A DNA stretch of 64,000 nt from Myxococcota bacterium (GCA_023150875.1 JAKLKC010000003.1:124001-188000), one strand, 5' to 3'; positions 20,665-33,006 are shown, counted from the stretch's first letter. Notes: generated by a model from the letters alone, not told the origin. Translations and numbers: made by a program.

Positions 20665-21168
20665 CTAGTCCCGATCCCAGCCCCCGCGTCCACCTCGACC
20701 GCCTCGTCCACCCCAACCGTCCCGTCCGCCCCAGCCATCTCGCCCGCCCCAGCCGTCTCGCCCCCGCCAGCCGTCTCGTCCGCCCCAGCCCCAGCCAGGG
20801 CCCCAGTCCCAGCCCGAGCGCCAGTGGGGCTTGCGCCAGTGCGGCGTCCGCCAGTACGGCGTCCGCCAGTACGGCGTCCGCCAGTACGGCGTCCGCCAGT
20901 ACTTCTTGTGGCCCCAGCCCCACCCGGGGTGGCCGCCCCACCTGCCGCCGTGGCGCCACTGCCCGCCGCGCCCCCACCGGCCGCGCCACCCGTCGTTCAC
21001 GTCGACCACCCGTACTCCGTCGAGTCCGTCGGCGACGGCCGGCACGAGGGCGGAGTCGATGTCCGCCGCTTCCGCGGGCGCGGGTTGGAGGAGCAGGCTC
21101 GCGGCGAGGGCGGCCGCGAACGCGGCCCCCCCGAGGGCACTCCGCCCCTTCTTCCACAGGATCTCCAT
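20665..21168 (-). CDS. Secreted Trp/Arg/Gly-rich repeat protein
   Basis: A 167-residue protein with a signal peptide (about 1-34, ending in EAADI) and a short conserved-looking segment around SALVPAVADGLDGVRVVDV. Next come tandem pentapeptides of the form (Y/H)WR(T/K)P, six in all, and then GGRDGWGGRDGW-type repeats ending in WDRD. Cationic, aromatic and Gly-rich, it is likely disordered and surface-active; no family recognised. The 5-residue unit is a near-perfect 15-base DNA repeat. AGGAGG lies two bases before the ATG, closer than usual. Confidence 0.75.
   Translation of the reverse strand: MEILWKKGRSALGGAAFAAALAASLLLQPAPAEAADIDSALVPAVADGLDGVRVVDVNDGWRGRWGRGGQWRHGGRWGGHPGWGWGHKKYWRTPYWRTPYWRTPYWRTPHWRKPHWRSGWDWGPGWGWGGRDGWRGRDGWGGRDGWGGRDGWGGRGGRGGRGGWDRD
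20821..20910 (-). repeat. 15-base tandem repeat encoding (Y/H)WR(T/K)P units
   Basis: The plus-strand unit CCAGTACGGCGTCCG occurs three times perfectly at 20851-20895, with degenerate copies at 20821-20835, 20836-20850 and 20896-20910. The perfect copies suggest recent slippage expansion; copy number may vary between strains. Confidence 0.85.
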
Positions 21169-21989: not shown

Positions 21990-22916
21990 TCATCCCCCCG
22001 AAGCGCCCGGAGAGCCGTCCTGCCCCGGCGCATCGCCGGAGCGGCCAGGGGATCCGTCGCGCCCGGGGGCGTCCTCGGAGCGGCCCCTCTCCCCGTTCCG
22101 GTGGGAGCCGCCGGGGCCGTCGTCCACCCAGTCCCGGGGGGCCGCCCCCCGGTCGCCCCCCAGGCGCATCCAGTCCATCCAGATCTCCCCGGGGGTCATG
22201 CCCGCCCGGACCCCCAGGAGCACCACGCGCGCGGCGCGCTCGGGCACCAGGCCGGCGCCGGCCACCAGCTCGTCCACCAGCCCCGGCGCCTCCCGCATCT
22301 CGCCGGGGAGCCACGCCTCGCCCAACGTCGCCGCGGCGACCTCCCCCGCGAGGGCCGAGGGGGTGCCCCGGGCCTCCAGCTCGGCGGCCAGCACCAGCGC
22401 GCCCACCCGGGACGAGGTGGGGGCGCGGGGATCCGCGGCGAGCACGACCCGCGTCGCCTCCCGGGAGATCCCCAGGGCGAGGGCCTCCATCACGTCGTCC
22501 CAGAGCGCGGGCGCGGCCTCGGTCCCCGCGCCCAGCTCCGACAGCAGCCGGCCGGCGCGGGCCAGGTCCTCCGCCAGCGCCTCCAACACCGGCGCTATCC
22601 GCGCGGCGGGGATCCCCTTGGCGGTCCCCTCGTGGACCTTGTCCATCAGCCGCCACGGCGGGAGGCCCCGTCCGGCGGCGTCGCGGAGGACGTCCAGGAT
22701 GCGCCGCTCGTGGGGATCGAGCACGCCGTCCCGCAGGAGCAGGTCCACCAGCTCCCGGGCCTGCCCGGCGTCCACCCCGGCGTCCGCCAGGATCAGCACC
22801 TCGGCGGAGGCGGCCCCGGCAGCGGCCCGCTCCGGCCGTCCCAGCCCGCAGGCCACCACCAGGGCGGCCACCGCCACCCTGGGGGGCCGCCATCGGGCTC
22901 CGCCGGTCCGCCGCAT
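21990..22916 (-). CDS. Secreted helical protein of unknown function (end of sigma/glycogen-binding operon)
   Basis: A 308-residue protein with an N-terminal signal sequence (VAVAALVVACGLG, possible lipobox VVAC), a long Ala/Leu/Glu-rich helical body (about 40-250) and a disordered Gly/Asp/Arg/Ser tail with repeated DGSPG units. No family recognised. The ATG at 22916 is chosen because AGGAGG lies four bases upstream, within the codons following an alternative ATG at 22934. It lies 40 bases after the glycogen-binding lipoprotein gene on the same strand, so is probably cotranscribed with the sigma operon. Confidence 0.7.
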   Translation of the reverse strand: MRRTGGARWRPPRVAVAALVVACGLGRPERAAAGAASAEVLILADAGVDAGQARELVDLLLRDGVLDPHERRILDVLRDAAGRGLPPWRLMDKVHEGTAKGIPAARIAPVLEALAEDLARAGRLLSELGAGTEAAPALWDDVMEALALGISREATRVVLAADPRAPTSSRVGALVLAAELEARGTPSALAGEVAAATLGEAWLPGEMREAPGLVDELVAGAGLVPERAARVVLLGVRAGMTPGEIWMDWMRLGGDRGAAPRDWVDDGPGGSHRNGERGRSEDAPGRDGSPGRSGDAPGQDGSPGASGG

Positions 22917-22956
22917 CGCGCCTCCTGTGTTCATGGACGTACCACCCCCGCGCCCG

Positions 22957-23319
22957 TCACCGCCGCCCGCCGGCGGGGACCTCGACCCGGGCGTTCTCGC
23001 CGCCCCACCCGTCGGGGACCACCCTCGCCCCCGCGCCCCGGGGGGCGAGCCAGCGGTCGATCCCCGCCCGCACCGCGCAGCGGTGGATCCCCGGGGGCAC
23101 TTCCAGGTCCAGGCGATACACGCCGGGCCGCACGGCCGCCATGGGGTGGGCCGCCCAGCCGTCCCAGGAGCCGGAGACCGCGGGGCCCCGCGCCTCGGCG
23201 TCCCTCAGCACGAACCGGAGCCTCCCCGCCCCCACCTTCACCGTCGCCCCGGGACCGGCGCACGCCGCCCCCAGGAGGGCCAGGCCCAGCAGCGCCGCCG
23301 CCGCGCCCCGCGGCCTCAC
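22957..23319 (-). CDS. Glycogen-binding-type (AMPK-beta/CBM48) lipoprotein
   Basis: A 120-residue lipoprotein (lipobox LLGAAC, Cys20) whose whole mature part is one AMPK-beta glycogen-binding/CBM48-like domain. Motifs: AVSGSWDGW, GVYRLDLEVPPG, HRCAVRAGIDRW and DGWGGENARVEV. The AMPK family consensus has GxFNxW, GxYxYxFxVDG and NSxxxV at these places. Start is GTG at 23319, overlapping the outer-membrane gene stop by 4 bases. Predicted role: envelope-anchored alpha-glucan binding. Two of the usual aromatic ligand-binding positions are present (the Trp residues of SWDGW); binding itself is unproven. Confidence 0.75.
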   Translation of the reverse strand: MRPRGAAAALLGLALLGAACAGPGATVKVGAGRLRFVLRDAEARGPAVSGSWDGWAAHPMAAVRPGVYRLDLEVPPGIHRCAVRAGIDRWLAPRGAGARVVPDGWGGENARVEVPAGGRR

Positions 23320-24242
23320 CTCGCCCTCCTCGCCGGCCGGCCGACCACCGCCGACGGCGACTCCACGCCGAGACTCAAATACCCGTAAAAGGAGCGGAAT
23401 CCGGGAGTTTCGTTCACGGGGGCGGCGACGTAGGCCCCACCGCCGAGCCCCGCCTGGAGCCTCCGCCCGACGCGCCGCCGGACCTCCCCCTCCGCCCGAA
23501 GCACCGGCCCCAGGCCGTTCCCGGGATCTCCCTCCATGCCTCCCCGGAGGCGCGCCCACCCTCCCCAGCCCCCCGCCGACGGCGAGACCAGCTCCACCCC
23601 CAGCAGGTGGGCGACGAACGAGAGGGGGGCCACCCCCGTGTCCGCCAGCTCCAGGGCATACACCGGGGCGATCCGTCCCCCACCCACCGGGACGCCGAGC
23701 CCCAGGGTGCCCAGGACCTCCCGGACCGAGGTGACGCCCCCCGCCATCCACCCCATGCGCGCCGTGCCCGAGACCTCCAGCCGGGGGGCCGACGGCGCGC
23801 CCACCTCCACCTCGCCCCGGACGAGGCCCCGGAGGCCCGGCCCCAGCGTCCGGGGCCACTCCACCGCCTCCTCCCCCCCGATCCCCGTCCAGGCGTCCAG
23901 CCCACCCCAAAGCCCGACGGACACCCGCGCCGCGGGCCGCAGGGTCATGCCCACCCGCATCGCCCCCGCGCCCGCCGCCCGCCGCCTCAGCACCAACCAC
24001 TGGGCCTCCCCGCCGATCCGGCCGTCGAGGCGGATCCCCAGCGCGGGGAAGGTCGCCGCCGCCACCCAGCCTCCACCCCGGACGCGCACCTCGGGGGAGT
24101 CCCCGTCCCCTCCCTCCAGGTTCGAGTCCACGTCGACCTGCGCGGCGCCCCCCGCCTGCACCCGCGGGACCGCCCCCGCCGCCCCGGGGGCGACCGCGAT
24201 CCCGGCCAGGAGCCAGGCCGCGGCCCGCCGGGGCCGCCTCAC
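23316..24242 (-). CDS. Predicted outer-membrane beta-barrel protein
   Basis: A 308-residue protein beginning with an Arg-rich signal peptide (MRRPRRAAAWLLAGIAVAPG, GTG start). The mature part is made of alternating-pattern strands rich in Gly, Val, Arg and Trp (VGMTLRPAARVSVGLWGGL, RLEVSGTARMGWM) and ends in a strand with FYGYLSLGVE. This fits a small barrel of about 12-14 strands, though no Pfam family is recognised. GTGA overlap with the anti-sigma-like gene upstream and with the lipoprotein gene downstream argues for a co-translated complex. It could be the outer-membrane sensor or channel of the system. Confidence 0.65.
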   Translation of the reverse strand: MRRPRRAAAWLLAGIAVAPGAAGAVPRVQAGGAAQVDVDSNLEGGDGDSPEVRVRGGGWVAAATFPALGIRLDGRIGGEAQWLVLRRRAAGAGAMRVGMTLRPAARVSVGLWGGLDAWTGIGGEEAVEWPRTLGPGLRGLVRGEVEVGAPSAPRLEVSGTARMGWMAGGVTSVREVLGTLGLGVPVGGGRIAPVYALELADTGVAPLSFVAHLLGVELVSPSAGGWGGWARLRGGMEGDPGNGLGPVLRAEGEVRRRVGRRLQAGLGGGAYVAAPVNETPGFRSFYGYLSLGVESPSAVVGRPARRAR

Positions 24243-24982
24243 GGGACGACGAGGACGGAGTTCTCGCGTCCCCAGCCATCGGGCACCACGTCCGCCGCCG
24301 CGGGATCGGGCTCCCACCGGGCGCCGTCGAAGACCAGGGAGTACTCGTACCTTCCGGAGGGCACCCGCAACTCCCCTCTCCACGAGCCGTCCGCGCCCCT
24401 CTCCAGCGGCGCGGAGTCGGGGTCCCAGTGGTTGAACGTGCCCGCCACGCCCACCGACCGGGCCCCGGGGGCCTCGACGCGGATGGGCACGCGCCGGAGC
24501 GCCTCCACCCCCGCGCCGGGAGGGGCCGCTTCGACGGGGAGAACCGCCGTCGCCGCCCGCTCCGGCGCCGCCGCCGGGGCGGGGACGCCGTCCCGGGCGA
24601 CCTCGGGGGCAGGGGCGGGAGCCGGATCCCGGCCTCCCACCAGGAAGGCCAGCAGCGCCGCCGCCGCCAGCAGTCCGGCCGCCAGGGCGAAGGGCCTGCC
24701 TCCTCCACCCATCCCTGGGCGTGCCGGCACCGCCCCCAGAGGGAGCCCGCCCGCCCTCCCCGCGGCGACGGCGTCGAGCACGCGGCCGACGGCGCCCACC
24801 GGGGGCTCGGGCGCGGTCCCGAGGGCTCCGTCCAGGCGGAGGAGCCGGCGCCGGTCCCGGGCGAGCTCCGGATCCTCCCGCAGCAGCCCCTCCAGCCGCG
24901 CCCGGCCGGCCTCGTCCAGCTCCCCGTCCCGCTCGGCCCAGAGCAGGCGCAAGCCCTCCCGCCGGTCCGGGGGATCCCTCAT
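24239..24982 (-). CDS. Transmembrane anti-sigma-like protein with extracytoplasmic AMPK-beta/CBM48 domain
   Basis: A 247-residue protein in three parts. Residues 1-75 form a charged helical cytoplasmic region with LWAERDGELDEAGRARL, like the N-terminal helices of anti-sigma factors but without an HxxxCxxC zinc motif. A single membrane helix spans about 98-117. After a Pro/Ala linker, residues 165-247 are a glycogen-binding domain (GTFNHWDPDS, SGRYEYSLVFDG, DGWGRENSVLVV). The aromatic and charged positions match the family consensus well. Translation is coupled to the sigma gene by an ATGA overlap. Inferred role: ligand capture outside the cytoplasm modulates release of the sigma factor. Confidence 0.75.
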   Translation of the reverse strand: MRDPPDRREGLRLLWAERDGELDEAGRARLEGLLREDPELARDRRRLLRLDGALGTAPEPPVGAVGRVLDAVAAGRAGGLPLGAVPARPGMGGGGRPFALAAGLLAAAALLAFLVGGRDPAPAPAPEVARDGVPAPAAAPERAATAVLPVEAAPPGAGVEALRRVPIRVEAPGARSVGVAGTFNHWDPDSAPLERGADGSWRGELRVPSGRYEYSLVFDGARWEPDPAAADVVPDGWGRENSVLVVP

Positions 24983-25572
24983 CCGCCGTCCTCCTCCGCC
25001 AGGCGCCGGAGCAGGCACTCCCGGGCCCGGCACACCCTCATCCGCACCGCCCCCTCCCGCAGCGACAGCACCGCCGCGATCTCGGCGTACTCCAGGTTCC
25101 CCTCGTGGCGGAGCAGGAACGGCTCCCGCAGCGCCTTGGGGAGCTCCCCGATCAGCCTGTGCACCAGCTCGTCCCGCTGGCGGGCGACCAGCCGGAGGTC
25201 CGGCGTGGGCTCGGGCATGGGCAGGGCGAGGGCGGCCTCGATGGGGCGCAGGAGTCGCCGCAGGCGCCGGGCCGCGGAGCGCCACTCGTCCTGGCAGCGG
25301 TGTATGGCGATCCGCGCGATCCAGGCCCCCAGGGAACACTCCCCCTGGAAGCCCGGGAGGCCGCAGTGGACCCTCAGGAACACCTCCTGGGTGAGCTCCA
25401 TCGCCCGCTCCGGGTCATCGACCCTCCGGTGGCAGATCCCGTACACCATCCGGTGGTAGCGCTCGACGATCCCCCGGAACGCCGCCGCGTCCCCGGCCGC
25501 CGCGTCCCGGGCGAGCCGGACGTCGTCGAAGGGGTCCTGAACGGGCCGTCGCCTGGGGAGACCGCTGGCCAT
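24979..25572 (-). CDS. ECF-family RNA polymerase sigma factor
   Basis: A 197-residue ECF sigma-70 factor. Region 2 reads FRGIVERYHRMVYGICHRRV, then AMELTQEVFLRVH and WIARIAIHRCQDEWR. Region 4 reads LPKALREPFLLRHEGNLEYAEIAAVLSLREGAVRMRVCRARECL. The usual D-x-A-Q-E-V-F is L-T-Q-E-V-F here. The ATG at 25572 fits family length; a GTG at 25608 is in frame but collides with its AGGAGG. Upstream minus-strand sequence has GTGAC and CGTC words at spacing roughly like ECF -35/-10 elements, hinting at autoregulation. First gene of the sigma/anti-sigma operon. Confidence 0.93.
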   Translation of the reverse strand: MASGLPRRRPVQDPFDDVRLARDAAAGDAAAFRGIVERYHRMVYGICHRRVDDPERAMELTQEVFLRVHCGLPGFQGECSLGAWIARIAIHRCQDEWRSAARRLRRLLRPIEAALALPMPEPTPDLRLVARQRDELVHRLIGELPKALREPFLLRHEGNLEYAEIAAVLSLREGAVRMRVCRARECLLRRLAEEDGG

Positions 25573-25662
25573 CGGACACAGTGTGACGCATATCTGGCGC
25601 GCCGTCACCTCCTTGACACGAGGCGAGGGATGTGAATGCCCGCGGGGGCGCGGAGCAGCCCC

Positions 25663-28600
25663 TCAGTACGTCGTCTCGACCACCACCGTGAGGTCCGCGG
25701 TCCCACCGACGGCGAGGGAGCCGACGGACCAGGTGACCACCCCCGTGCCGGCATCGTGGACGCCTCCGAGGTCGGCGCTGACGAAGCGGGTGCCGGCGGG
25801 CAGCGGATCGGTCACCACCACCCCCGACGCCGCGGCGTTGCCCCCGTTGTCCACGTGGACCTGGAAGGTCAGGCGGGTGGACACCGCCACCGTGGCGGAG
25901 GCGGGGGCCGAGGACCGGGGAGCGGTCTCATTGGAAACCACCGTGGCGACATTGGAAATCGACACGTCCACCGCCTCGGTCGCCACAAGCGCCTTGGTGA
26001 TGGCCAGGTCGGGCTGGGCGGTCACGTCCACCGTCTCGCTGTCGGCGGCGGATCCCGCGTCGGGGGAGGCCAGGACGACCTGGTTGAGCACCGAGGTGGT
26101 GCCCGCCGGGAAGGCGCCCGGAGACTTGAGGACGACGGAGTAGGTCACCAGCCCTCCCGCCCCCGGCGCCACGTCGCCCAGGTCCCAGGTCACCACGTCG
26201 CCGTCGTAGGTCCCGCCCACCAGGTCGGTGACCGCGGAGATCCAGGTCTCGTCCGGGTCGTCGGCGAGGGTCGCGGCGGTGGCGGTGGCGTTCCCCGGGT
26301 TGGAGTAGGACACCCCGTAGGTGAGGGTGTCCCCCGGGCTCGGCACGCCGTCCAGGTCCGCGTCCAGGAGGCCGGTCAGGGCCTTGGAGACCTGGAGGGA
26401 GGCCGAGGCGGTGACGGTCACCGTCGCCGAGGACTCCGCGGGGAGGGCCACCGGCGAGGAGGCCGAGGCGGTGTTGGAGACCGCCGTGGTGCCGTCGGCG
26501 AAGGCCCCGGGACCGGCGAGGAAGACGTCGTAGGACAGGGAGACGGTGGCACCCGGGGCCAGGTCTCCGAGGCCCCAGGAGATGACGTCGCCGTCGTAGG
26601 TCCCCCCGTGGGAGATCGCGTCCACCGTCGCCACGAACGCCTCGTCGGGGTCGTCGGCGACGGTGACGGCGGTGGCGGTGGCGTTGCCCGCGCTCCCCAC
26701 GTCGACGCGGTAGGAGACGCGGTCGCCGGGGCTGAGCAGGCCGTCGAGATCGAGGTCCGCGAAGCCGGTGGCGACCTTCACCACGGACAGGGTCGCCGCG
26801 GCCTCGACGTCCACCGACGCCGTGGCGCCCACCGGGGCCAGCTCCGCCGAGCTCAGGGTCGCCACGTTGACCACCGGGGTGAGGCCGTCGGGGAAGGTCC
26901 CGGCGTCGGCGAGGACGACGGTGTAGGCGAAGGACCCGGCGGCCCCCGGCGCCACGTCGCCCAGGGTCCAGAGGATGAGGTCGCCGTCGTAGAGCCCTCC
27001 GCCGGTGATCCCGACCACCGCGGCCACCCACGCCTCGTCGGGGTCGTCCGCCAGCTCCACGGCGGTCGCCGCGGCGTTGCCGGCGTTGGCGTAGTCCACG
27101 CGGTAGTCGACGGTGTCGCCGGGACCCAGCAGGCCGTCCAGGTCCAGGTCGGCCCAGCCGGTGGACGCCTTGGACAGGGTGAGGGCCGCCGCCGAGGAGA
27201 CGGGCACGTCGCTGGAGGCGGGGACGTCGCCCCCCTCGGTGGAGCGCAGGGTCGCGCGGTTGGTCACCACCACGGTGCCGTGGGTGAAGGCGCCGGGCCC
27301 GGCGAGCTGGACGGTGTAGGAGAGGGAGCCCGAGGCGCCGGGGGCGAGGTCGGGGAGGCTCCAGGCGATCCGGTCGCCGTCGTAGGTCCCGCCGCCGGTG
27401 ATCCCGGTGACGGCCACCACGTAGGTCTCGTCCGGGTCGTCGGTCAGGGTGACGGAGGTCGCCGTGGCGTTCCCGGTGTTGGAGTAGTCCAGGCGGTAGC
27501 CCAGGCGGTCGCCGGGGCTGGCCACCCCGTCGCCGTCGAGGTCCTCGAGGGTGGTGAGGGCCTTGGAAAGGGTGACGGCGGCGGCGGCGGAGACTTCCAC
27601 CGTCTCGGCGTCGGAGGCCGGGGCGCCGCCGGGGGAGGCGAGGACGGCGGAGTTGGAGACCGCCGTGAGGCCGTGGGGGAAGGTGCCGGCCGGGGCGAGG
27701 ACCACGTCGTAGGAGACGGAGCCCGAGGCGCCGGGGGCCAGGTCGCCCAGGGACCAGGTGAGGACGTCCCCGTCCCAGGCGCCCAGGTCGGAGATCGGGC
27801 CCACCGAGGCGATCCACGACTGGTCGGGATCGTCCGTGAGGGTGGTGGAAGAGGCCGTGGCGTTGCCGTCGTTCCTCCAGTCCACCCGGTACGAGACGGT
27901 GTCCCCGGGGCTCAGCAGGCCGTCGCCGTCGGCGTCCACCGTGCCGGAGACGGCCTTGGTGGCGGCCAGGGCGACGGCGGCGGTCACGTCCACCGCGGCG
28001 CTGGCGACGATGGGGAGGGACTCCGCGGTCTCTAGGGTCGCGGTGTTGGCCACGGCGGTGGTGCCCGCGGGGAAGACGCCGGGGGAGGCGAGGGTGGCGG
28101 TGTAGGTGACCGATCCCGAAGCGCCCGGGGCGAGGTCGCCGAGGGTCCAGACCACGGTGGAGCCGTTCCAGAGCCCGCCAGCGGAGATCCCGGTCACCGC
28201 CGAGACGTAGGCCTCGTCGGGATCGTCCACCAGGATGGCGTCGTGGGCGGTGGAGTTCCCGTCGTTGGCGTAGTCCACCCGGTAGGTGACCTGGTCGCCC
28301 GGCGAGACGAGGCCGTCCAGATCGACGTCCACGGTGCCGGTGACGACCTTCGAGAGGGCCAGGGCCACGGACGCGCCGACGTCGACGGCCTCCTCGTCGG
28401 TGGTGGGGCCGGTGTCGGCGGAGTCGATGGTGGCGGTGTTGGGGACCGAGGTGCTTCCGGCGGGGAAGGTGCCGGGGCCCTCGAGGGTCGCGGAGTAGGT
28501 CAGGACGCCGGAGCCGCCGGGGGCGACGGTGTCCAGGTCCCAGGTGATGGAGAAGCCGTCGTACACGCCGCCGCTGGCGGTGGCGTCCACGGAGGCGACG

Positions 28601-31600
28601 TAGTCGTCGGCGATGTCGTCCGCCAGCACCACGTCCGTCGCCGGGGCGTCGCCGGTGTTGGAGTACTCCAGGGCGTAGTGGACGACGTCGCCGGGGCTGA
28701 CGACCCCGTCCAGGTCGACGTCGGTGAAGCCGGTGGAGGTCTTGACGAGGGCCAGGGCGGGGGTCCCGGTCACCGTCACGTCGGTGGAGGTGGACTCGGG
28801 CTCGGTCTCGCCGGAGTCGATGACCGCCGTGTTGCCGACGGTGGTGGAGCCCGCCGCGAAGGCGCCCGCGCCCGCCAGGGTCGCGGTGTAGGTCAGGGTC
28901 CCCGAGGCCCCCGGAGCCACCGTGCCCAGGCTCCAGGAGATCCGGTCGCCGTCGTACACCCCGCCGCCGCTGATCGCCGAGATCGAGGCGACGAACGCCT
29001 CGTCGGGGTCGTCGGAGACGGTGGCGCCGGTGGCGGAGGCGTTCCCGGAGTTGGCGTAGGCGACGGCGTAGTGGACCGAGTCGCCGGGGCTGAGCACCCC
29101 GTTGCCGTCGGCGTCGGTGTAGCCCGTGGAGGTCTTGCTCGCCGAGAGGTCCGCCGCCGCCCCCACGTCCACCCCGGCGCTCGCCGTCACCGGATCGGTG
29201 TCGGCGGAGTCGATGGTGGCGGTGTTGCCGACGGTGGTGGACCCGTGGGCGAAGGTCCCGGCGCCCGTCAGGGTCGCGCTGTAGGTCAGGATCCCCCCGG
29301 CGCCCGGGGCCACGTCCCCCAGGCTCCACGAGATCCGGTCGCCGTCGTACAGGCCGCCCGCGGAGATCCCCGAGATCGACGCCACGAAGGCCTCGTCGGG
29401 GTCGTCCACCACCGTCGCGCCGGTCGCCGGGGCGTTCCCGGAGTTGGAGTAGGTGACGGCGTAGTGGACGACGTCGCCGGGGCTGAGCACCCCGTTGCCG
29501 TCGGCGTCGGTGGTGCCGGTGGACGCCTTGGCGAGGGTGAGGCTCGCCGCCGCCGTCACCTCGACGGTGGCGGTGGTGGTGGTGGGGGGAGTCTCGCCGG
29601 AGGAGATGGTGGCGACGTTCCCCACGGGGGTGGTCCCCGCCGCGAAGGCGCCCGGGCCCGCCAGGGTCGCGGTGTAGGTCAGGGTCCCCGAGGCCCCCGG
29701 AGCCACCGTGCCCAGGCTCCAGGAGATCCGGTCGCCGTCATACAGCCCGCCGCCGGAGATCGCCGAGATCGAGGCGACGAACGCCTCGTCGGGGTCGTCG
29801 GTGACGGTGACGCCGGTGGCGGGGGCGTTTCCGGTGCCCGCGTAGGAGACGGCGTAGTGGACGGCGTCGCCCGGGCTCGGGACCCCGTCGCCGTCGGCGT
29901 CGGTGTAGCCCGTCCACGCCTTGCTCACCGTCAGCGCGGCGGCGGCGGTCACGTCGACGGTGACGGTGGCCTGGGTGGCGTCCACACCCTGGGACTGGAG
30001 GACGGCGACGTTGGTCACCGGGGTGACGCCGGAGGCGAAGGTCCCCGGTCCAGCCAGTACGGCGCCGTAGGTGAAGGAGCCGGACTGGCCCGCGGCCAGG
30101 GTGCCGACGCTCCAGGTGATGGTGCTGCCGTCGTACACGCCGCCCCCGGTGATCCCGGTCACGGCCGCCACGAACGCCTCGTCGGGATCGTCCACCACGG
30201 CGATCCCCAGGGCGTCGGCGTTGCCGTCGTTGGCGAAGTCGACGCGGTAATACACGGTGTCCCCCGGGCTCAGGGAGCCGTCGGAGTCGGCGTCGTCGTA
30301 GCCCGTGCTCACCTTCGCCACCCCGAGGGCGACGTCGGCGGAGACGTCCACGGTGGCGACGGCGCTGACCGGCGCGACCTCGGCGGAGCCGAAGAAGGCC
30401 ACGTTGGCGACCTCGGTCGTCCCCTCCGGGAAGGCGCCCGCGGCGAGGGTGGCGCCGTAGAGCAGGGTGCCTCCCGCGCCGGGCGCGACGGTGCCGAGGT
30501 CCCAGCGCACCAGGTCGCCGTCGTACACCCCCGCTCCCGAGATGTCGGAGACGGCGGAGACGTAGGTCTCGTCGGGATCGTCGCTGACGAAGGCCGAGGT
30601 CGCGCTGGCGTTCCCGGTGTTGGACCATGCGACCTGGTATTGGACGACGTCGCCGGGGCTCAGAAGGCCGTCCAAATCCACGTCTTCGAAACCCAGCACC
30701 GTCTTGGAGACCGCCAGGACCACCTGGGCCGAGACGTCCACCGTCGCAGTGGCGGTCACGGGGCCGACCTCGGCAGAGTCGGCGATGGCGAGGTTCTGGA
30801 CCGAGGTGACGCCGTGGGGGAAGGCTCCGGGGCCGGACAGGGTCGCCTCGTAGGTGACCGAGCCGGCGCCGCCCGCAGGCAGCGTGCCCAGGCTCCACGT
30901 GACCAGGTCGCCGTCGTAGGCGCCCCCGTCGGAGATCGCCCCGATGGCGGAGATGTGGGTCTCGGGGGGATCGTCGTCGATGACCGCGGCGGTCGCGTCG
31001 GCGTTGCCGGGGTTGGCCCAGTCGATCCGGTACTGCACGCGGTCGCCGGGGCTGAGCACGCCGTCCCCGTCGACGTCGGTGAAGCCGGTGGCGACCTTGG
31101 ACAGGGTCAGCCCGGCGGCGGCGGCGACGCTCACCGTCTCCAAGTCCCAGATGGGGCTCGGCAGGGTCGACGACGAGAGGGTGGCCACGTTGTCCACGGC
31201 GGTGGTGCCCGCGGGGAAGACCCCGAGCCCGCCGAGCTGCGTCGAATACGTGAACGTGCCGGTCGCGCCGGGCGCGAGGTCGCCCAGGGCCCACGAGACG
31301 GTGTCCCCGTCGTACACGCCACCCCCCGAGATCGCCGTCACGCCGTCGATCCAGGCCTCGTCGGGATCGTCGGTGAGGGTGGCCGAAACGAGGATGACGT
31401 TGCCGGTGTTGGTCCAGGTCACCTGGTAGTGGACCAGGTCGCCGGGGCCGAGCTGCCCGTCCAGGTCCAGGTCGTCGAACCCGACGGCGGACTTGTCCAC
31501 CGAGGCGGTGGGGACCACGTCGGTCACGGGATACGAGCAGCTCTCGGCCGCCGAGGCGGTGACGCTGTAGGTGTCCTTGATCGCCGACACCGCGTCCGCC

Positions 31601-33006
31601 GTCACCCCGACGTTGGTGGCGATGGAGCCGCCGCCGTCCGCGGCCCCCGCCGCGGCCCTCACGGTGACGGTGCGGGCGACGCACGCGCCGGTGGCGAGGT
31701 CGCCGATGAGCCAGGTCACCTCCCCCGGAACGGCGTCGTAGGTCCCGCCGTCGCTCGCCGAGACGAAAGTCACCCGGGGATCGGCGGGCAGGGTGTCGAC
31801 GAGGACGGTGTCGGCGGCGTCGCCCTTGCCCGTGTTGCAGAGCTCCAGCGTGTGGGTGAGGTCCTGGCTCTCCCCCTCGAGGACCTGGGTCACCGAAGCG
31901 TCGCAGGTCTTGGTCACCACCAGTTCGGGGGGATTGACCACCGCGTCGGGCTCGGAGAGCCAGCCGGGGTAGCCGGTATCGACCTTCCAGGTGCCCCGGT
32001 CCCGGTTCACCTGAGACTGGAAGTAGGGGATGAACCGGCTGCTGCCGGGTCCCACCACGGTGAAGCAGTACTCGCCGACGTAGTGATCGCCACTGGACTG
32101 GGTGCCGGGGAGGTCGGAGACCTGGAGGTACGCCTGGTCGTGGTAGCTCACGGACGGCGGGGTGCCGGGGGCGTCGACGCCGGGGATCCCGACGAGGATC
32201 GAGCCGGGATCCGCGCCGTTGGTGTCGTAGTAGTAGAAGTCGAAGCGGTCCAGGCGGACGACGTCGGCCCAGTAGTAGATCTGGGCGACGAGCTGCTCCG
32301 CCGACTGCTGGCTCTGCCAGCGATACTTGGTACGGAAGCAGAAGGACTCGCCGACCTCCGCCTCCACCGACTCCGGCTCGGTGTCGAGCCAGCGCAGGTC
32401 GTTCTGGCTGATGGAGGCCGACTTCTCCATGGCCACCACCTGGCTGGCGGTGGCCACGAGCAGGCCCGACGAGAGCAGCTCGTAGCTGTACCTCTCGTGG
32501 TCGGTGGTGACGGAGAGGCCGGCGCAGCCCAGCAGCTCGTCCTGATCGTATCCGACCTTCTCGATGTTGAAGTAGAGGGCGTAGTCCCCCGGAGCGAGCT
32601 GCCCGTCGATCACGCCGTCCAGGTAGTCCAGGTCCCGGATCCCCGAGCCCACGGTCACGCCGTTCACGGCCGAGAACTCGTCCATGTAGAGGTCGTCGAC
32701 GGAGTCCGTCGTCCAGGGCCCCACCGGCGAGTCGTCGTCGATGACCCGGATCTCGGGGTCCACGAGGGTCGACGTCACCGAGATGTGGACCTCGTTGACG
32801 GCCTCCTCGGGGTCGGCGTTGCTGTTGACGGGAGGGCAGCCGTCCTTGTCGCCGGGACTCCCCGAACTGGGCTCCAGGACGGCCGGCGTCGAGATCACGG
32901 AGATCGACGCCGCGCGGGCCGGCTGGGCCAGGGCGACCGCGAGGACGGGGAGGGAGGCGAGGGGGAGGGAGCGGCGGAGGGAGGGGCGGCGCGACGGCGT
33001 GGACAT
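25663..33006 (-). CDS. Giant secreted protein with tandem DUF11-type calcium-loop repeats
   Basis: A 2447-residue protein: signal peptide (LPLASLPVLAVALAQPARA), a unique N-terminal region of about 380 residues with several Cys and many Tyr (ligand-binding candidate), one DUF11-type domain, 14 tandem repeats of about 131 residues, and a final divergent DUF11 domain ending VVVETTY. Each repeat opens with a calcium-loop motif (DVDGDGVLSPGD), then YANTGN-type and DDPDEAFVASISGISGG-type segments, then APGASGTLTYTATL. It has no LPXTG, membrane anchor or MYXO-CTERM, so release or non-covalent attachment is expected. Probably a surface stalk or adhesin. The ATG at 33006 is preceded by a GAAGGGGAA site. 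Confidence 0.9.
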   Translation of the reverse strand: MSTPSRRPSLRRSLPLASLPVLAVALAQPARAASISVISTPAVLEPSSGSPGDKDGCPPVNSNADPEEAVNEVHISVTSTLVDPEIRVIDDDSPVGPWTTDSVDDLYMDEFSAVNGVTVGSGIRDLDYLDGVIDGQLAPGDYALYFNIEKVGYDQDELLGCAGLSVTTDHERYSYELLSSGLLVATASQVVAMEKSASISQNDLRWLDTEPESVEAEVGESFCFRTKYRWQSQQSAEQLVAQIYYWADVVRLDRFDFYYYDTNGADPGSILVGIPGVDAPGTPPSVSYHDQAYLQVSDLPGTQSSGDHYVGEYCFTVVGPGSSRFIPYFQSQVNRDRGTWKVDTGYPGWLSEPDAVVNPPELVVTKTCDASVTQVLEGESQDLTHTLELCNTGKGDAADTVLVDTLPADPRVTFVSASDGGTYDAVPGEVTWLIGDLATGACVARTVTVRAAAGAADGGGSIATNVGVTADAVSAIKDTYSVTASAAESCSYPVTDVVPTASVDKSAVGFDDLDLDGQLGPGDLVHYQVTWTNTGNVILVSATLTDDPDEAWIDGVTAISGGGVYDGDTVSWALGDLAPGATGTFTYSTQLGGLGVFPAGTTAVDNVATLSSSTLPSPIWDLETVSVAAAAGLTLSKVATGFTDVDGDGVLSPGDRVQYRIDWANPGNADATAAVIDDDPPETHISAIGAISDGGAYDGDLVTWSLGTLPAGGAGSVTYEATLSGPGAFPHGVTSVQNLAIADSAEVGPVTATATVDVSAQVVLAVSKTVLGFEDVDLDGLLSPGDVVQYQVAWSNTGNASATSAFVSDDPDETYVSAVSDISGAGVYDGDLVRWDLGTVAPGAGGTLLYGATLAAGAFPEGTTEVANVAFFGSAEVAPVSAVATVDVSADVALGVAKVSTGYDDADSDGSLSPGDTVYYRVDFANDGNADALGIAVVDDPDEAFVAAVTGITGGGVYDGSTITWSVGTLAAGQSGSFTYGAVLAGPGTFASGVTPVTNVAVLQSQGVDATQATVTVDVTAAAALTVSKAWTGYTDADGDGVPSPGDAVHYAVSYAGTGNAPATGVTVTDDPDEAFVASISAISGGGLYDGDRISWSLGTVAPGASGTLTYTATLAGPGAFAAGTTPVGNVATISSGETPPTTTTATVEVTAAASLTLAKASTGTTDADGNGVLSPGDVVHYAVTYSNSGNAPATGATVVDDPDEAFVASISGISAGGLYDGDRISWSLGDVAPGAGGILTYSATLTGAGTFAHGSTTVGNTATIDSADTDPVTASAGVDVGAAADLSASKTSTGYTDADGNGVLSPGDSVHYAVAYANSGNASATGATVSDDPDEAFVASISAISGGGVYDGDRISWSLGTVAPGASGTLTYTATLAGAGAFAAGSTTVGNTAVIDSGETEPESTSTDVTVTGTPALALVKTSTGFTDVDLDGVVSPGDVVHYALEYSNTGDAPATDVVLADDIADDYVASVDATASGGVYDGFSITWDLDTVAPGGSGVLTYSATLEGPGTFPAGSTSVPNTATIDSADTGPTTDEEAVDVGASVALALSKVVTGTVDVDLDGLVSPGDQVTYRVDYANDGNSTAHDAILVDDPDEAYVSAVTGISAGGLWNGSTVVWTLGDLAPGASGSVTYTATLASPGVFPAGTTAVANTATLETAESLPIVASAAVDVTAAVALAATKAVSGTVDADGDGLLSPGDTVSYRVDWRNDGNATASSTTLTDDPDQSWIASVGPISDLGAWDGDVLTWSLGDLAPGASGSVSYDVVLAPAGTFPHGLTAVSNSAVLASPGGAPASDAETVEVSAAAAVTLSKALTTLEDLDGDGVASPGDRLGYRLDYSNTGNATATSVTLTDDPDETYVVAVTGITGGGTYDGDRIAWSLPDLAPGASGSLSYTVQLAGPGAFTHGTVVVTNRATLRSTEGGDVPASSDVPVSSAAALTLSKASTGWADLDLDGLLGPGDTVDYRVDYANAGNAAATAVELADDPDEAWVAAVVGITGGGLYDGDLILWTLGDVAPGAAGSFAYTVVLADAGTFPDGLTPVVNVATLSSAELAPVGATASVDVEAAATLSVVKVATGFADLDLDGLLSPGDRVSYRVDVGSAGNATATAVTVADDPDEAFVATVDAISHGGTYDGDVISWGLGDLAPGATVSLSYDVFLAGPGAFADGTTAVSNTASASSPVALPAESSATVTVTASASLQVSKALTGLLDADLDGVPSPGDTLTYGVSYSNPGNATATAATLADDPDETWISAVTDLVGGTYDGDVVTWDLGDVAPGAGGLVTYSVVLKSPGAFPAGTTSVLNQVVLASPDAGSAADSETVDVTAQPDLAITKALVATEAVDVSISNVATVVSNETAPRSSAPASATVAVSTRLTFQVHVDNGGNAAASGVVVTDPLPAGTRFVSADLGGVHDAGTGVVTWSVGSLAVGGTADLTVVVETTY
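26010..31515 (-). repeat. Fourteen tandem ~393-base repeats within the giant surface protein gene
   Basis: Fourteen consecutive units were counted from their DxDxDG-x-x-SPGD openings; the span divided by 14 gives about 393 bases. Units around 28700-29900 are nearly identical over long stretches (compare 28951-29030 with 29739-29818), suggesting recent duplication or gene conversion. Boundaries are approximate. Confidence 0.85.

Follow-up and report, generated by a model that had tools for sequence, protein, structure and literature searches.

A stretch of 64,000 nucleotides from a Myxococcota bacterium (GCA_023150875.1 JAKLKC010000003.1:124001-188000), called here the window in its full length, carries on the minus strand, from 25572 to 21990, five genes that encode an extracytoplasmic function (ECF) sigma factor, an anti-sigma factor with a CBM48 domain, a beta-rich protein, a CBM48 lipoprotein and a helical protein. 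Sequence comparison marks the operon as a divergent representative of a system found across several phyla. That the sigma and the anti-sigma factor form a signalling unit with these partners was judged highly probable; taken as a whole, the reading that we favour, with some reserve, is an envelope signalling system in which this pair is governed by CBM48 sensing. The features of the operon are the following.

24979..25572, minus strand: ECF sigma factor with sigma2 and sigma4 domains, 197 amino acids (Pfam; kin in homologous operons)

24239..24982, minus strand: membrane anti-sigma factor with a periplasmic CBM48, 247 amino acids (CBM_48, NCBIfam antisigma and family profile)

24758..24961, minus strand: anti-sigma domain, approximate, amino acids 8-75, without zinc cysteines (alignment and match of the profile to the PDB)

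24635..24691, minus strand: predicted transmembrane helix of the anti-sigma factor, amino acids 98-116 (hydropathy 2.43 over 19 residues)

24242..24496, minus strand: CBM48/AMPK-beta-type domain of the anti-sigma factor, amino acids 163-247 (Pfam and alignment)

23316..24242, minus strand: secreted beta-rich protein, probable outer-membrane barrel, 308 amino acids (strand statistics and position)

22957..23319, minus strand: lipoprotein with the second CBM48, 120 amino acids (lipobox and match to a lipoprotein-CBM48 of Acidobacteria)

21990..22934, minus strand: secreted all-helical protein with a disordered C-terminal tail, 314 amino acids (family profile, alignment and AlphaFold)

25584..25609, minus strand: GGTGAC-N15-CGTCA, a candidate ECF promoter ahead of the sigma gene (its position matches the promoters of other lineages)

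The first four genes are joined by overlaps of 4 bp, ATGA at 24979-24982 and GTGA at 24239-24242 and 23316-23319, and all three were read at the junctions where an earlier sequence-only reading of this DNA had placed them. The helical gene follows the lipoprotein gene after a gap of 22 bp, with no overlap.

In the sigma factor, Pfam matched Sigma70_r2 (1.2e-15) and Sigma70_r4_2 (1.1e-13), so that sigma2 and sigma4 are its only domains, and its closest kin were found in homologous operons (6e-27). In the anti-sigma protein, CBM_48 was matched at amino acids 163-217 (1.7e-5, 25.5 bits against a cut-off of 22.4), and the window protein alone reached NCBIfam antisigma at 6.3e-6, under the 100-bit cut-off of that model. 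We then relied on a family profile of 17 full-length members, the window included. Against solved structures it matched RsiW (5.4e-8, positions 5-76) and RseA (4.7e-3), and its opposite end gave a pullulanase at 2e-17 and AMPK-beta glycogen-binding domains at about 1e-10. AMPK1_CBM and CBM_48 were matched by all 17 members and zf-HC2 by three (best 6.8e-8). The zinc motif is absent from the window domain; the zinc cysteines are also missing from many class I anti-sigma domains (PMC7406223). These matches support the assignment of the N-terminus to the RsiW/RseA-type (class I) anti-sigma domains. Considering that the predicted transmembrane segment (amino acids 98-116) precedes the CBM48 (amino acids 163-247), the latter is predicted to lie on the outer, periplasmic side, in agreement with the topology proposed earlier.

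To examine the distribution of the system, 84,980 species genomes were scanned; this gave 220 relatives, and the best 80 loci were analysed. According to the gene calls, an ECF sigma gene lies no more than two genes upstream, in the same orientation, in 68 of these 80 loci; a six-frame search added sigma neighbours in three more (L089, L106 and L133), which brings the count to 71/80, and some of the remaining loci are cut at contig ends. Taking into account that the window genome (6.9 Mb) has only 23 matches to sigma region 4, this linkage of sigma and CBM48 genes is beyond chance. The conservation of the neighbourhood, which the sequence-only reading had named as a check, was thereby found, and it extends across phyla. 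Among the 68 loci linked to a sigma gene by gene calls, the helical protein is present in 59 and a second CBM48 lies nearby in 40, often fused to a predicted beta-barrel. The hosts include Gemmatimonadota, Nitrospira and other Nitrospirota, Acidobacteriota, Krumholzibacteria, Verrucomicrobia or the Planctomycetes-Verrucomicrobia-Chlamydiae (PVC) group, Atribacteria, Deferrisomatales, deltaproteobacteria and the class of the window. The full-length anti-sigma protein was found in 16 of 39 Nitrospira genomes. Within the class of the window, 26 of 71 genomes gave some match to the profile, about a dozen of them with a short type of anti-sigma factor, most with a second CBM48 about 1 kb away. When the anti-sigma protein was compared with 58 related genomes, six of these carried a pair of CBM48 genes separated by about 1 kb, in the order sigma, helical protein, short transmembrane protein with CBM48, and a protein in which a beta-rich part and a CBM48 are fused. 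Other neighbours were also seen: divergent secreted proteins of 84-98 amino acids with RLRDGSC/RLKDGTC motifs upstream of the sigma gene in PVC and Deferrisomatales (L099 4741-4995, L113 4704-4967 and L100 4641-4937), and DUF4382 proteins beside the system (L119 3820-4926, 1.6e-21; L082 7580-8230, 5e-20), with proteins of similar appearance in L124 and L127.

The partners at the outer membrane can be followed from the relatives to the window. The window lipoprotein has a lipobox, and it matches at 3e-13 a lipoprotein-CBM48 of the same system in Acidobacteria (L111), which bears out the earlier proposal of a second CBM48-type domain, though in Pfam alone the match is weak (AMPK1_CBM 0.15, 12.7 bits against a cut-off of 26.8). 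Neither the beta-rich nor the helical protein of the window has a Pfam match. The count of amphipathic strands in the beta-rich protein gave a z-score of 3.1 against its own shuffles (2.7 for an outer-membrane control of PF13557), a home-made score that is low in some fused relatives and serves as supporting evidence only. Since a predicted barrel occupies the same position in relatives, these statistics lead us to read the protein as a probable outer-membrane barrel. In Nitrospira, a PF13557 barrel (3.5e-13) stands directly upstream of the sigma gene. A fusion of Krumholzibacteria (L108) combines OMP_b-brl (2.1e-5) with AMPK1_CBM (6e-11), and in the six related genomes the fused protein, of about 350 amino acids, is beta-rich over its first 270 and ends in the second CBM48. 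Structures were modelled for the barrel-CBM48 of a Gemmatimonadota relative (L060) and for the helical protein of the window. The AlphaFold model of the former has 14 strands followed by the CBM48, with a predicted local distance difference test (pLDDT) score of 81, and its best Foldseek matches were OmpG-like porins (OmpG) and the AMPK-beta CBM. The barrel and second CBM48 that are fused in relatives are thus separate neighbouring genes in the window. Considering the even number of strands and the C-terminal location of the CBM48, the topology of outer-membrane proteins predicts that the second CBM48 of the fused barrels is periplasmic, and therefore direct contact with extracellular glycan is not expected.

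The helical proteins form a family (n=45) with a GLPxxxLxxKxxEGxxKG-like motif in which P92, G103 and K106 are invariant. The model of the window member shows 13 helices (mean pLDDT 83.5) and a disordered tail. Foldseek returned mostly designed helical repeats, with a best E of 0.02 and low TM-scores and no functional hint, and the comparison of the sequence profile with the PDB likewise gave no explanatory structure.

Motifs of the ECF promoter type were shown to be repeated, in three lineages, before the sigma gene and before a further target, frequently a small secreted protein of low complexity. In a first group of Gemmatimonadota, CGTGAC-N17-GGTC stands before the sigma gene in 16 of 21 loci and, also in 16/21, before a gene for a secreted K/A-rich protein of about 70 amino acids that adjoins the helical gene. 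A second group has GTTACC-N17-CTCTTTA before the sigma gene (15/18) and a divergent GTTACC-N17-ATCTTTA (9/18); the genes behind the latter include those of the barrel-CBM48, of a small secreted protein of low complexity and, in 10/17 loci, of a sigma2-only mini-protein. In Nitrospira, GTT(T/G)AC-N16-CGTCTA precedes the sigma gene in 8 of 9 loci, and in four loci a second site was seen further upstream, near a lipoprotein gene or a gene that we take to be DUF5666-like. Shuffled-locus controls for the three lineage promoters gave 2, 0 and 0 sites.

These promoters bear on a narrower explanation, in which the sigma and anti-sigma pair is real and the barrel, the lipoprotein and the helical protein are outputs of the regulon, not parts of the sensor. 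The barrel-CBM48 of Gemmatimonadota, which belongs to a divergent operon of its own preceded by a matching promoter, would fit such an explanation, and so would the group that is often without a nearby second CBM48. Against it, the same rare domain is present at both membranes, and in the three genomes checked, two of Nitrospira and one of Acidobacteria, no profile match that reaches 1e-10 falls outside the operon. Both points speak for a common ligand or contact, and we consider it rather improbable that these proteins are outputs alone.

Some small proteins near these sites deserve a record of their own. The sigma2-only mini-proteins (L060, L063, L066, L067, L074, L086, L088, L091, L109 and L117) have about 110-190 amino acids and no sigma4 match, are encoded on the minus strand, divergently and just upstream of the sigma gene, and are possibly decoys or co-regulators. 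Secreted proteins of small size and low complexity (K/A-rich, TPATPATP, RPDRPER) were repeatedly located behind the promoter type of the sigma factor or beside the sigma gene at L068 7049-7261, L131 6995-7210, L060 4379-4744 and L111 1857-2174. In the window, an open reading frame of 167 amino acids (20665-21168), two genes downstream of the operon, may encode a secreted low-complexity protein with WRTPY and GRDGW repeats and might be the counterpart of the small secreted targets of relatives. Immediately before the sigma gene and in the same orientation, 25663-33006 encodes a secreted protein of 2447 amino acids with many similar repeats, DUF11-like by eye. A promoter-like site before the helical gene (22936) was taken as chance; it overlaps the stop of the lipoprotein gene and abuts the start codon.

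In the signalling system that we favour, the N-terminal domain of the anti-sigma factor would hold the sigma factor at the membrane, while the CBM48 of the anti-sigma factor and the CBM48 linked to the barrel, perhaps with the helical protein, would read a periplasmic cue. This cue would most likely be a carbohydrate that enters through the barrel or is retained by it, or an altered contact of one CBM48 with the other. Release of the sigma factor would follow, probably via proteolysis, as supposed from the examples of RseA and RsiW; once free, the sigma factor would transcribe its own operon and the genes of the barrel-CBM48 and of the secreted low-complexity proteins. Extended further, and only tentatively, this may describe a TonB-independent sugar-sensing sigma pathway of Gram-negative bacteria over many phyla, where an OmpG-like porin passes an oligosaccharide in or out, the CBM48s at both membranes bind the oligosaccharide or enclose it by binding to one another, and secreted low-complexity coat or matrix proteins are then induced by the sigma factor; we hold this wider version to be doubtful.

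Several findings weigh against the signalling system with CBM48 sensing, and the first of them concern the sugar. The residues of the sugar site were numbered as in AMPK-beta1; N150 falls inside one of the two search patterns, and W100 and W133 fall outside. Each of the 69 anti-sigma CBM48s, that of the window among them, has W100, W133 and N150, and in the second CBM48s W100 is present in 41/41, W133 in 35/41 and N150 in 22/41. K126 is absent from the 69 anti-sigma CBM48s, its place being taken in most by M, A or Q and in the others by L, S or G, and as a control it was kept in 21 of 22 CBM48s located on long open reading frames of related genomes. By alignment, then, the aromatic platform is retained and one sugar contact is systematically replaced. 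Genes of glucan or glycan metabolism were not recurrent beside the system in the homologous loci, and such neighbours were rejected as a clue to the ligand, the genes beyond the core being lineage synteny. From the residues that are kept, carbohydrate binding by the CBM48 is plausible; that the cue is a glycan bound by this domain we rate at slightly below an even chance. Of the trans-envelope sensing of alpha-glucan or a similar ligand proposed in the sequence-only reading, sigma signalling across the envelope is well supported by the anti-sigma N-terminus, the periplasmic CBM48, the neighbourhood conserved across phyla and the barrel partner, while alpha-glucan as ligand is unproven, given the loss of K126 and the lack of glucan genes nearby.

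The same observations lend themselves to the principal competing explanation, a relay by contact without sugar, in which the CBM48 on the outer-membrane side touches and protects that of the anti-sigma factor, and the loss of contact, through envelope damage or failed assembly of the barrel, frees the sigma factor. The loss of K126 from every anti-sigma copy, the retention of N150 in only about half of the second CBM48s, the predicted periplasmic location of the fused ones and the lack of glycan genes nearby are all in line with this relay, and in an analogous system the signalling domain of FoxA shields FoxR from proteolysis (PMC11637429). Yet the invariance of W100, W133 and N150 in the anti-sigma copies exceeds the needs of a mere binding surface, and the contact between the two CBM48s is only postulated. 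We regard the relay without sugar as possible and, on the whole, unlikely.

Other points against the favoured signalling system come from the window itself and its nearest relatives. The sigma tree leaves the window sigma factor unplaced, on a very long branch. In relatives of the same class (L035-L041), the N-terminus of the anti-sigma factor has only about 30-50 amino acids before the transmembrane helix and most of the anti-sigma domain is gone, so that contact with the sigma factor may differ there. The barrel of the sequence-only reading stands as a secreted beta-rich protein whose type is a regular partner in relatives, but the window copy has no homologue in the 58 related genomes, in related loci or by profile comparison, and the barrels of different lineages mostly fail to align with one another by the latter method. 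The window site GGTGAC-N15-CGTCA (25609-25584) has the same place before the sigma gene as in other lineages and is a candidate only, being one of 11 matches to a loose pattern in 64 kb. An orphan barrel and a very divergent sigma factor could also be expected if the gene order in the window were accidental and the genes formed no functional unit. This is contradicted by the translational overlaps and by the same set of parts in 71/80 loci across phyla, and it seems extremely improbable.

By comparison with known systems, the closest functional analogue is SigI/RsgI. In Clostridium thermocellum, the transmembrane anti-sigma factor RsgI bears a carbohydrate-binding module on the outer side of the membrane; its gene adjoins that of the sigma factor, and the two are under autoregulation (PMC4711584). 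The shared trait is an extracytoplasmic module of carbohydrate-binding type, here CBM_48, on an anti-sigma factor encoded beside the sigma factor. The RsgI system, in contrast, is Gram-positive, has another class of sigma factor and another N-terminal domain, carries CBM3, PA14 or GH10 and not CBM48, and is without outer-membrane barrel, second CBM and helical partner; neither the N-terminal domain of RsgI nor a SigI-type sigma was among the Pfam and NCBIfam matches of the window proteins. With FecIRA and FoxIRA (PMC11637429), the system shares a three-layer relay of ECF sigma factor, transmembrane anti-sigma factor and outer-membrane protein with a periplasmic domain. It differs from them in having no TonB-dependent receptor, plug or FecR/STN domain, in that both periplasmic modules are CBM48, and in the small barrel, with about 14 strands and OmpG-like in the modelled relative. 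No FecR domain was found on the anti-sigma factor, for which Pfam gives only families of CBM type plus zf-HC2 in 3/17, and no TonB-dependent receptor was found, the window barrel of 308 amino acids being without Pfam match and those of relatives being PF13557, OMP_b-brl or 14-stranded. SigW/RsiW and SigE/RseA (PMC7406223) are alike in the type of sigma-binding domain and in membrane anchoring; here the periplasmic part is a CBM48, the partner genes are others and the window copy is without the zinc motif. Finally, the glycogen-binding domain of AMPK-beta and CBM48 (PDB 1z0m, 1z0n and 4yef) share the fold and the equivalents of W100, W133 and N150, and differ in that here K126 is replaced in every anti-sigma copy and the domain is periplasmic and placed on a regulator of a sigma factor.

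Our literature searches found no report that joins CBM48 or AMPK1_CBM with an anti-sigma factor, although the 2021 re-classification of ECF sigma factors may contain a bare listing. The system is apparently undescribed, and it is best read as a form of ECF trans-envelope signalling that works like RsgI and FecIRA and belongs to neither. It would add to ECF signalling a class that recurs across phyla, with a sensor module of glycogen-binding type and a small barrel as outer-membrane partner instead of a TonB transducer. Many Nitrospira and Gemmatimonadota genomes contain the system and, its promoters being specific to each lineage, the regulon can be computed genome by genome and the questions of ligand and output are directly testable.

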